Assembly (NCBI GenBank): GCA_028532765.1 | Contig: JAQQAR010000068.1 | Location: 1 to 37,624 of the forward strand | Length of the DNA stretch: 37,624 nucleotides | Reading direction: 5' to 3' | DNA from: Sphaerochaetaceae bacterium | GTDB taxonomy: Bacteria; Spirochaetota; Spirochaetia; Sphaerochaetales; Sphaerochaetaceae | Shown: in pieces, positions 19,325 through 30,954 of the stretch | Position numbering within the stretch: position 1 is the stretch's first letter | Layout of the letters: each line of letters begins with the position of its first letter | The notes under the pieces: generated by a model | What the model saw: the letters and a program-made list of their open reading frames with translations, nothing else | Database searches by the model: none | What the model was told of the DNA's origin: nothing | Translations under genes and position numbers: made by a program

Positions 19325-19930
19325 TCAGTTATTTCGATCCTCTTCTAACGCTTCTGCATCCATCAATAGAAACAACTCCCTCGCGAAATCACATTTGAAG
19401 GGCACTGATGGCTCATCTTGGTGAGTTCGCAAATTCTTAAGAAGGTTGTAGTTGATAGCTAGAGGCATGTCCCCTTTGGTATAGCCTCCTTCGATGAAAG
19501 CCTTGAATAAAGGCATGTACTCATTGCTATGCATGGGTGTCGTGAAGTGATTCCTACTGACACATGATGTCCACCATCTCTGCATCTCCGATTGATCAAG
19601 ATGCATGGAAAGAAAATCTTCAAAGTTCATATGAGAAAAAAGGAAATCTGGGATGTCGATGGATTTTCTCTGATAGTTATCCATGTCTGCATTATCGTTG
19701 CGTTTATACCTGTCCCAATCCACCCAGATATAGATAGTTGTATTTCTATTATCCTTCCTTACTTCCCTAAATTTTTTCACTACCGAGGCAAACAAGCCTC
19801 CATTCGAAGGCCGCGGTATAAAATGCAGTGGTATATCTTCTTCTTCAAGATACCGGTTCAGCTCCTGGATATAGGCTTTCTCTGAAGCTCCCTCACACAC
19901 GATGATTATGTTACGGTTTCTTCTATACAT
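19325..19930 (-). CDS. TOPRIM-like protein, RloB/AbiLii type
   Basis: A 201-residue protein. Its first strand and acidic turn, RNIIIVCEGASEKAY (Glu13), and the later IYIWVDWDRY (Asp71 and Asp73) give the E...DxD pattern of a TOPRIM nuclease/primase fold, as in RloB and AbiLii proteins. The frame extends to 19987, but AGAAGG lies 7 bases before the ATG at 19930, the fold begins there, and this removes a 41-base overlap with the ATPase. It is the second gene of a two-gene operon with an AAA ATPase. By analogy with RloAB-like, AbiL and PARIS systems it is likely the toxic effector of a phage-defence pair. A DUF4435-type assignment is an alternative. Confidence 0.65.
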   Translation of the reverse strand: MYRRNRNIIIVCEGASEKAYIQELNRYLEEEDIPLHFIPRPSNGGLFASVVKKFREVRKDNRNTTIYIWVDWDRYKRNDNADMDNYQRKSIDIPDFLFSHMNFEDFLSMHLDQSEMQRWWTSCVSRNHFTTPMHSNEYMPLFKAFIEGGYTKGDMPLAINYNLLKNLRTHQDEPSVPFKCDFARELFLLMDAEALEEDRNN

Positions 19931-19946
19931 CAATGAACCTTCTGCC

Positions 19947-21212
19947 CTATATATATGAATGAGGGATTCCAGAAAAGGTTCCATCAAGATATTGTTTCCT
20001 AAAGTTTGTCACGTTTCTTACCCCTTCAAAGTCAGAGACCCGCTTGAAAACAGTCCCTTTCTTCAATGTCTTGGTAACGATACCAATCTCTGATACACGC
20101 ATCATGTCTTGTTCCATGATATCTGTATTGTGCGTGGTGAATATCAGCTGTGCGTTTGATATGTTGTATCTTTTATCTTTGAACATCCTCACAATTTCTG
20201 CAAACAAGTAGGGGTGGAGGGAGTTTCCCAGCTCATCGATTACAAGAAGGTTTCCTTTTCTTAGTGCAGTGATTACTATACCGAGCAGACAGGCAACTCG
20301 CTGAGTACCCAAAGATTCATCCTTAAAATTGAACTGAACCTCATTGCCAAAGATATCTTCGTGATACGAATTGATCTCAGTTGCCGTAATTATTTTGTTT
20401 GAGATGTTGAATTCATACTGACTTGCAGGAAAGGAACTATCTTCTTTTCCAATTTCGTCTTTCTTGTACTCCATGCGAGTGATATCGATATCCAGTTTTC
20501 GTAGTATGGTGACAATATCTTTAAAAGCTTTTTGAGGATCCATACCTGAGTCGGTATTCGTCAGTCTGTCCAGTCCAAAAGAAAATGGAAAATCGTTGCT
20601 TGGATATACCTCAACGTTATTGGTGATGAATCCATATGCAACTGTCATGGAGTCGTTCAGGCCAGCATAGTTCTTCCCCACTACAGAGAGGAAAGGAGTC
20701 CTGAACTGTTGTTTTTGATCCAAGCATTCCACTGAAAATATGGTATCAAGCTTCTTTGATGGATATACATCGGTTGCGATGGCTGTGAAAGACCTATTCC
20801 TGTTATCAATAGAAAAGACAACTTCATTATTCTTTACCAGTCTCTCGGTAACAATTGCCTCTCCGTTCACTTCCAAGGAATAAAGAAATTTCTTGTCTTC
20901 CTTGAGAAATTCGAGTGCAAATGAGGTGATATTATCTAGGGGATGCAATTTGTTCGTGGAGATAATCTCCGGATTATAACGGTTTTTTATAATCCCGACA
21001 AACGAAGCGAGCGCCTTTATAATATTGGATTTTCCTGATGCGTTCGCACCATATATTGCCAGACACGGGATGGTCCGGACGTCACCCTCTTCGAGAAATG
21101 GTAAGAGTTCCATCTGCATATATCTATTTGGGGCCTTCCTCTCCGCGTATGACATTGGGAGAGTGAGGTCCAGGATAGATCTATAATTTTTTATTTGAAA
21201 AGATATAATCAT
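19947..21212 (-). CDS. AAA ATPase of the SMC/OLD-like class (RloA/AbiLi type)
   Basis: A 421-residue ATP-binding protein of the AAA_15/AAA_21 type. The N terminus, MIISFQIKNYRSI, is the classic first strand. The Walker A is YGANASGKSNI (residues 55-62), the signature-like segment is DESLGTQRV, the Walker B is LLVIDELGNSLHP (near 325) and the switch is TTHNTDIM (near 360). AAAGGAG stands 11 bases before the ATG. Downstream by 16 bases is the TOPRIM-like partner. In characterised systems of this architecture the ATPase senses a phage component and controls the nuclease partner; here that is inference. The pair sits between a sugar transporter and its probable sensor, consistent with later insertion. 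Confidence 0.8.
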   Translation of the reverse strand: MIISFQIKNYRSILDLTLPMSYAERKAPNRYMQMELLPFLEEGDVRTIPCLAIYGANASGKSNIIKALASFVGIIKNRYNPEIISTNKLHPLDNITSFALEFLKEDKKFLYSLEVNGEAIVTERLVKNNEVVFSIDNRNRSFTAIATDVYPSKKLDTIFSVECLDQKQQFRTPFLSVVGKNYAGLNDSMTVAYGFITNNVEVYPSNDFPFSFGLDRLTNTDSGMDPQKAFKDIVTILRKLDIDITRMEYKKDEIGKEDSSFPASQYEFNISNKIITATEINSYHEDIFGNEVQFNFKDESLGTQRVACLLGIVITALRKGNLLVIDELGNSLHPYLFAEIVRMFKDKRYNISNAQLIFTTHNTDIMEQDMMRVSEIGIVTKTLKKGTVFKRVSDFEGVRNVTNFRKQYLDGTFSGIPHSYI

Positions 21213-28906: not shown

Positions 28907-30481
28907 TCACATTTCTTTCAATCGATCCTCTGATGAAAGATCAATAAGCCATCCATGGACAGATGGACTCCAGGGGCGAGTGTAGGTTATTCCATCGTAC
29001 GTCTCTGCTATAAGATTCAAGGAGCTGTCGGGATATGTGCTCAACCAGCTGAGAACCCAAGCGAACGACTCTGGGACAATGGCTTGTGTATCTCCACTTC
29101 GCCAGATGATATCACCCAACACGTCTAAACCGTTATCTTGGAGTGCGTCCATCTCATCGGTAATCATGTAGAGATGCCATATATCTTCACCAGTACGATT
29201 CCGGGCAAGGAGAGTAGCATAGCCATAAGGGGCTTCTGGCAATGGCTCTGATCTGAAGTTCTCATTGGTCAGTTCAATACTCCAGCCATCATCGTGAGGT
29301 GACCAAAGCAAGTGGTATTCCTCATTATCCAGATCGAGACCAACAAGATGTAATGGTTCATCGCTATCAGAAGCCAATAATTCATTTAGATGGGAGAACT
29401 GAGAGAGAGTGATATATGTACTTTCTCCGGCATACAGGATGCTGTCCTCTAGCAGATCCTCTCCGAATGCATATACATCATAGTATTCATCAGTGGCAAG
29501 ATAGAGGTACCAAATATCAAAGTCGGTATTGTTCTCCACATACAGCTCATATGTATCAAGGGAGACATCATACTGGAGGTTTGCGATAGTCAATTCAATA
29601 TTCCAGATATCTGTAGTGGGAAACCACAGTCTTTTATATATGTCACCATCGGTATCTTCTGCAAGAATTTCAACCCTGCCATATGTATCAAACGGTAACT
29701 GATCGGCTATCCAGGGAACATCATCAGTTGCTATGTGAACGATACGTGTTGGAAGGAGTACCATATCACCTAAGAGATTGGTACTCGCAATTTCATCATT
29801 ATCAGTGGGATCAATGACATAGAGTGCACTAAGGGGGTACTCCGTCCCATTCGTGATAAGAAAATAGTCTCCTTGTGAGGGAGGGATTGTTACATCATCA
29901 AAAGAGAAGGTGAGTTCATCTTCAGTAATCTCGATATTCCATGAATCGGTTTCTGGCAACCATGAGAAGCTATACCGATCTCCATCGATGTCGATTGCAT
30001 TGACTGAGTATGATTCTTTTCCTTGTTGCTCTAAGGCTTGTTGTAATAACGGAAACTTGAATAGTGCAATTCTCTGTTGACCGTGGTGAATCAGAGCCTC
30101 CGGTTCTAACAGATTATCCATCTGGTCATTTGAGCGGTACATGCTCTCATTGAATATATCAAGCTGTACCAGTGTGTAGCCGGTTTCATTGCTTACAATA
30201 AGATACTCGCCGTAACGTGGAACATCTCCATAGTGAAAAACTCGCTTGGGTTTTATCAATTGTGCAATCGAATTTTGTTGTTCATCAGGTGCATCCAGTG
30301 CAGCAATTGGTGTCTCTGTTTCAGGTGAAGTAGTAGAAAGATCCTCAATTGAAATGGGGAAGACAACCTCACTTTCTATTTCATGCATAGGCTCGGCTGT
30401 AGTGGAAGTAGCACAGGATACCAACAGGAGTAGCATGCCAAGTACCAGTATGATCACTGTATGAAATGCATCTCTTTGCAT
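28907..30481 (-). CDS. Four-repeat lipoprotein of unknown family
   Basis: A 524-residue acidic protein with a lipoprotein signal ending LLLLVSC (Cys23), then a low-complexity linker to about residue 80. Four modules of about 95 residues follow (about 92-186, 205-297, 310-404 and 420-515). Each starts with a strand plus an N-x-T turn (VSNETGY, ITNGTEY, ENNTDF, RNRTGED) and a Tyr/Leu strand. Each ends with W-x-P-x4-W-x-I-[ED]-[IL], with tryptophans at 174/181, 286/293, 393/400 and 504/511. AAAAGGA precedes the ATG. It is probably an exported, membrane-anchored beta-rich repeat protein. I do not recognise the module. The gene stands alone. Confidence 0.8.
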   Translation of the reverse strand: MQRDAFHTVIILVLGMLLLLVSCATSTTAEPMHEIESEVVFPISIEDLSTTSPETETPIAALDAPDEQQNSIAQLIKPKRVFHYGDVPRYGEYLIVSNETGYTLVQLDIFNESMYRSNDQMDNLLEPEALIHHGQQRIALFKFPLLQQALEQQGKESYSVNAIDIDGDRYSFSWLPETDSWNIEITEDELTFSFDDVTIPPSQGDYFLITNGTEYPLSALYVIDPTDNDEIASTNLLGDMVLLPTRIVHIATDDVPWIADQLPFDTYGRVEILAEDTDGDIYKRLWFPTTDIWNIELTIANLQYDVSLDTYELYVENNTDFDIWYLYLATDEYYDVYAFGEDLLEDSILYAGESTYITLSQFSHLNELLASDSDEPLHLVGLDLDNEEYHLLWSPHDDGWSIELTNENFRSEPLPEAPYGYATLLARNRTGEDIWHLYMITDEMDALQDNGLDVLGDIIWRSGDTQAIVPESFAWVLSWLSTYPDSSLNLIAETYDGITYTRPWSPSVHGWLIDLSSEDRLKEM

Positions 30482-30741: not shown

Positions 30742-30954
30742 TTACAGGAATCTGTTTTGCTGTGTGTCTTGAAGTAGTAATGCTGCTGGAATATTCAATT
30801 CCTCATGAAGCCTTCTCATCATAGAAAGACTGAGAGGTCGTTTTCTGTTCAAAATTTCAGACACTTTGCTCTGACTACCAATAATGGGAACGAGATCTTT
30901 TCTGGACAGTTCTTGTTGATCCATTACAAACAAAATTGCATCGATTGGACGCAT
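30742..30954 (-). pseudogene. Truncated HigA-like antitoxin (HTH domain only)
   Basis: The 70-residue frame matches the C-terminal helix-turn-helix half of HigA antitoxins: PIDAILFVMDQQELSRKDLVPIIGSQSKVSEILNRKRPLSL and MMRRLHEELNIPAALLLQ. Full HigA proteins have about 50-60 more N-terminal residues. Upstream of the ATG the frame hits a stop after two codons, all frames are closed, there is no ribosome site, and no HigB toxin gene lies next to it. It is most likely a remnant, though it could still bind DNA. Confidence 0.6.

Follow-up and report, generated by a model that had tools for sequence, protein, structure and literature searches.

A predicted Sphaerochaeta lipoprotein with four tandem copies of an apparently uncatalogued spirochaetal domain

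What kind of protein is encoded at positions 28907..30481 on the minus strand of a 37,624-nucleotide stretch of Sphaerochaetaceae DNA (contig JAQQAR010000068.1, hereafter the window), and what could be the use of its repeated architecture? The open reading frame has an ATG start and 524 codons and possesses homologues in related genomes; its 524-aa product is almost certainly a lipoprotein, predicted to consist of a long disordered tether followed by four homologous domains. A reading of the letters alone (the original prediction) had described it as a lipoprotein built of four copies of an unrecognised module of ~95 residues, and the analysis presented here takes up the anchor, the modules, their relatives and their genomic surroundings.

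Residues 1-23 (30413..30481, minus strand) form a signal peptide with the lipobox LVSC at residues 20-23, thus the window protein (MQRDAFHTVIILVLGMLLLLVSC) carries the signal peptide with a Cys-ending lipobox by which bacterial lipoproteins are recognised. According to the sequence the lipidated residue is predicted to be Cys23, and the model places a helix at residues 2-21. The lipobox Cys is retained in most homologues and is absent from L082 and L083. The following acidic tether (residues 24-83; 30233..30412, minus strand) was mostly predicted to be disordered in the full-length AlphaFold2 model, with pLDDT <50 at residues 23-68 and 77-84, and it was among the quicker-evolving parts in three of the four ortholog pairs.

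The modules occupy residues 84-188 (29918..30232), 197-300 (29582..29893), 303-407 (29261..29575) and 414-518 (28928..29242), all on the minus strand. Each is supported by module alignment and profile match, additionally by the full-length model for modules 2, 3 and 4, by a separate AlphaFold2 prediction for module 1, and by a match to the profile of single-domain relatives (E 1.7e-6) for module 3. Between any two modules 21-36 residues are identical in an alignment of 90-106 residues, and the z-scores of the six pairs against shuffles lie between 5.8 and 20.7, every pair scoring above all shuffles; the closest pairs are 1-2 and 3-4. Near its beginning each module has an N-x-T turn (residues 98, 211, 317 and 428), and towards its end the pattern W-x-P-x4-W-x-I-[ED]-[IL] (residues 174, 286, 393 and 504), which occurs four times in the protein and not once in 20,000 shuffled versions. 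When the module profile (23 rows, the window gene's own four modules included) was run over the whole genome, it found exactly four copies, all in the window gene, with E 1e-27 to 1e-33. The predicted lipid anchor, the four copies and the two motifs had been read correctly from the letters; as for the ~95-residue length, the repeat unit itself is real and the estimate was slightly short, since the domain has ~105 aa and the repeat spacing is 107-112 residues.

The fold of the module is confidently predicted to be a small two-helix alpha/beta sandwich. AlphaFold2 returned a model of module 1 with pLDDT 93 and pTM 0.85 (from an alignment of 89 related domains), in the order strand, strand, helix, strand, helix, strand, strand, strand. 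The same strand/helix order appears four times over in the full-length model, in agreement with the repeated beta-rich units of the original prediction; its low pTM (0.31) is expected of domains joined by flexible links. Foldseek against solved structures gave no match under E 0.001 (best E 0.06), and a fold search against viral structures gave nothing significant. VIA Z-scores of about 6, reaching 6.1, were obtained to Ig-like and transthyretin-like sandwiches, values which are inside the stated noise of the tool. Such look-alikes, for instance the extracellular domain of PepT2 and the beta domain of VHL, resemble the module as small two-sheet sandwiches, but they show neither Foldseek significance nor sequence similarity to it. 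The absence of a fold match does not imply a new fold.

The domain could not be named from the catalogues either. In Pfam no model reached its cut-off for the window protein (best 13.5 bits, DUF1818, cut-off 25), NCBIfam gave zero matches, and the Pfam scan of all 89 domain rows produced only scattered sub-threshold matches, the best with E about 0.007. With the homologues as queries both collections again returned scattered sub-threshold matches which name no family, and sequence and profile searches of the PDB sequences gave no significant match to the module. The profile search proposed with the original prediction therefore ended with no confident match to a characterised family in Pfam, NCBIfam or PDB. 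The CV39L lectin (6gxs) was considered as a candidate on account of its summed E of 1e-6 and was rejected, since this value adds five pieces each under 5 bits. Several 25-residue stretches of CV39L do resemble the A-x-D-x-D-G-x-x-Y-x-x-x-W segment of the module, nevertheless the matches stem from the short repeats of CV39L itself, and the summed E is no evidence of kinship. In the literature searched, no paper was found on the window protein or on LCCL in Sphaerochaeta. A tandem-domain lipoprotein is of an ordinary kind, while the domain family itself appears to be uncatalogued.

The module, which the original prediction could not name and for which Pfam, NCBIfam and PDB gave no name either, is no orphan: it is distantly related to small secreted spirochaetal proteins and has LCCL-fused relatives. 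Searched against 393 genomes of the phylum, the module profile detected small secreted proteins (105-330 aa) from numerous families (E 1e-3 to 7e-9), whose type signature is NxTGxxIxxLYxSxxxxWxxDxLG and for which no Pfam or NCBIfam name was found. In the reverse direction, a profile built from the small proteins alone recovered the window gene (E 1.7e-6), and hhalign of the tandem against the single-domain profiles gave a probability of 98.5 and E 1.5e-15. Both groups share the N-x-T-G start, D/N-x-L (D/N-L-L-G), L-x-x-G and A-x-D-x-D-G-x-x-Y; across the 89 domain rows the Asn of the first turn is conserved in all 89, Leu42 in 83 and Tyr87 in 79. Judged by these comparisons, the module represents a branch, amplified in tandem, of a spirochaetal family of small secreted domains. 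A 461-aa protein (L117:2303-3685) was also noticed; its N-terminal domain belongs to the small family, and its C-terminal part has no Pfam match.

The two groups differ in several respects. The single-domain rows have an invariant Trp (21/21), whereas no Trp is among the common residues of the tandem modules at that place; compared with the small NxTG proteins, the tandem modules lack both the LYxS serine and this Trp, which follows the second strand, but have an extra helical insert near residues 58-70 and the terminal W-x-P-x4-W. Since the invariant Trp and LYxS are wanting in them, the tandem modules are regarded as a homologous sister branch and not as members of the small-protein group proper. 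We infer that the tandem branch probably lost the Trp and acquired the insert and the terminal pair of Trp, the ancestral state itself being a reconstruction. The Trp motif, originally noted at the ends of the modules, is characteristic of the tandem branch, and the wider family does not have it. Apart from one record below E 0.001 (Subdoligranulum, 2e-4 and 9e-7), plasmid searches for the single-domain relatives gave weak matches only, consequently spread beyond the spirochaetes is not established.

Five other genomes of the genus, one of them of the same species, possess orthologs with 85-99% identity, and a protein search over genome contigs found only a near ortholog, in Sphaerochaeta sp. 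S2. More distant four-module homologues occur both in another six genomes of the genus and elsewhere in the family, in other genera; altogether 12 of the 26 genomes of the genus carry the four-module form, and 20 of the 139 genomes of the family have the module. The gene is under purifying selection, with a whole-gene dN/dS of 0.25-0.28 against orthologs from four other species; in this comparison dN was lowest in modules 1 and 2 and higher in module 4.

Within the Sphaerochaeta family the module number varies: one (L084), three (L087, L098 and L100) or four (the window and others). Additionally, LCCL-domain proteins of the same bacteria have LCCL and then two (L088-L091 and L102) or four modules of the window type, and L092 is a shortened LCCL-plus-module form; LCCL stands at the head of several paralogues and of one homologue. 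Two papers (PMC3683062, PMC12839204) describe LCCL as occurring in secreted proteins, and some of these proteins bind LPS or bacteria. The Pfam scan found no LCCL (PF03815) in the window protein. In the two-module forms several LCCL scores are slightly below the Pfam cut-off (22.6) and those of L090 and L091/L016 are above it, and the best score, 63.3 bits, belongs to L097. The latter (L097:5266-7221, genus g179) is a lipoprotein with a clear LCCL (63 bits) ahead of four modules, and the papers searched held no description of bacterial LCCL proteins of this type. In other parts of the phylum, domains of the wider family are found single, paired, or fused to an NlpC/P60 peptidase.

In the module tree the modules group by position over genera, 1 with 2 and 3 with 4, the deep forks being weak. 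The first modules of the LCCL proteins fall on the 1/2 side and the second ones on the 3/4 side, again with a weak deepest fork. A recent duplication of the modules was rejected, because the tree holds the positions together across genera. The tree would fit an ancestral two-domain protein, each half of which may later have been doubled.

The lipoprotein gene stands by itself in the window, with a decayed HTH gene on one side and, on the other, what we take from its sequence and not from a family search to be an H+-pyrophosphatase, and this place is kept in the orthologs. The isolation of the gene from other systems, as originally stated, holds for the window lineage and fails for others. In three genomes (G001, G002 and G005) a Cys-type sulfatase (PF00884, SGSH_C) flanks the homologue on one side and a radical-SAM/SPASM enzyme on the other, and sugar ABC transporter genes precede it; upstream, these loci have a LacI-like regulator, a solute-binding protein and two permeases. 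Radical-SAM SPASM enzymes of this kind are typical of anaerobic sulfatase maturation. The maturase (anSME) adjoins the module gene also in G022, and the gap between the two is ~45 bp in all four genomes. No signal peptide is evident in the paired sulfatase, which would accordingly act in the cytoplasm. The sulfatase/maturase linkage is lineage-specific, a clue and not a rule; as a general function it was rejected, since the maturase without the module gene (G020, G019, G016, G023, G004 and G003, where the maturase locus has other neighbours) and the module gene without maturase matches (G011 and G014) both occur. In the window genome the maturase is on another contig, and there is no close copy of the paired sulfatase. 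By simple counts, which are too weak for an association, the maturase is present in 10 of the 12 four-module genomes and in 8 of the 14 others of the genus.

Two observations concern the maturase locus itself. In G002 an IS1595-like transposase ORF splits the sulfatase-maturase gene (L081:7548-9859). Furthermore, the anSME neighbourhood of Sphaerochaeta (L104-L110) is a variable slot in which other cassettes replace the module gene: a second sulfatase with other transporter-like genes, or another ABC transporter cassette that includes a 439-aa protein.

With regard to function, we lean towards extracytoplasmic binding or adhesion by the four-module lipoprotein. The anchor, the tether and the four domains, together with the LCCL and NlpC/P60 company and the sugar context of one lineage, make multivalent binding the best guess, and the occurrence of one, three or four modules, or of LCCL with two or four, is expected of additive binding domains. 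The lipidated Cys23 would anchor the protein in the outer membrane and a flexible stalk would present four independent domains, each of which might hold the same type of extracellular ligand, weakly, on a surface between beta sheets and loops, so that four copies would provide useful avidity. The likeliest class of ligand would be carbohydrate, either a host or plant glycan or an envelope polysaccharide. Genome context and architecture make a glycan ligand possible, though doubtful when taken as a separate claim. Against the binding model speak the lack of a solved relative or significant fold match in the searches, the restricted sulfatase linkage, the presumably cytoplasmic action of the paired sulfatase, the two homologues that have no lipobox Cys, and the low pTM of the full-length model, by which the arrangement of the domains is not fixed. 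The best explanation overall, to which we give somewhat less than even credit, is a tethered lipoprotein giving multivalent extracellular binding, with glycans as the leading guess.

The same architecture might instead belong to a structural envelope protein, a spacer or coat of the outer membrane or a tie to the layer beneath, with no specific soluble ligand. This is unlikely, albeit the most serious of the competitors: the fold is kept at the low inter-module identity given above, module number and genome context vary, and the NlpC/P60 fusion of a relative suggests life near the cell wall; however, the position-specific identity of the modules over genera suggests distinct jobs and not a plain spacer, and a domain confined to 20 of 139 family genomes is no core envelope part. 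An accessory role, in which the protein captures sulfated oligosaccharides for an adjacent uptake and desulfation pathway, would explain the position of the gene, with sulfatase and anSME on either side of it in three genomes and ~45 bp away from anSME in four, and the regulator, solute-binding protein and permeases upstream. It is improbable in view of the maturase neighbourhood being a hot spot with other cassettes in other species, the separate contig and missing close sulfatase copy in the window genome, the module gene without maturase in G011 and G014, and the counts (10/12 versus 8/14), too weak for an association. To a similar low degree probable is that the modules bind protein and not glycan, in Ig-like style, as an adhesin, an inhibitor or a secretion-partner lipoprotein; the best structural look-alikes are of the Ig-like/transthyretin-like type, but their Z of ~6 lies within noise and Foldseek had no match under E 0.001. 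Multivalent binding by the tethered lipoprotein is accordingly the reading that we prefer. A bolder version of it, which we consider unlikely as a whole, is that the module founds a new and widespread spirochaetal family of extracellular binding domains, covering the free-standing small secreted, the LCCL- and NlpC/P60-linked and the four-fold lipoprotein forms, and that in Sphaerochaeta the tandem form serves to capture glycans.

Neither the domain nor its widespread single-domain relatives seem to be listed in the main catalogues, and many spirochaetal secreted proteins are thereby left hypothetical; definition of the family would annotate these proteins jointly. The lineage flanked by sulfatase and maturase provides a concrete and testable guess about the ligand and, if it is true, a surface glycan-binding protein would be at hand for a phylum with poorly understood surface lipoproteins.

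Two further loci of the window deserve mention. Directly upstream of the lipoprotein gene there is a 70-aa HTH remnant (30742-30954, minus strand), and at the orthologous places in L077 and L103 a 143-aa HTH protein is preceded by a short HigB-like ORF; apparently a toxin-antitoxin pair is in decay at this place. At 19328-21212 (minus strand) an AAA ATPase (AAA_21) is followed by a 220-aa ORF; the two match AbiLi (E 2e-68) and AbiLii (E 2e-9) of PADLOC, and this pair is likely a phage defence system of the AbiL type.
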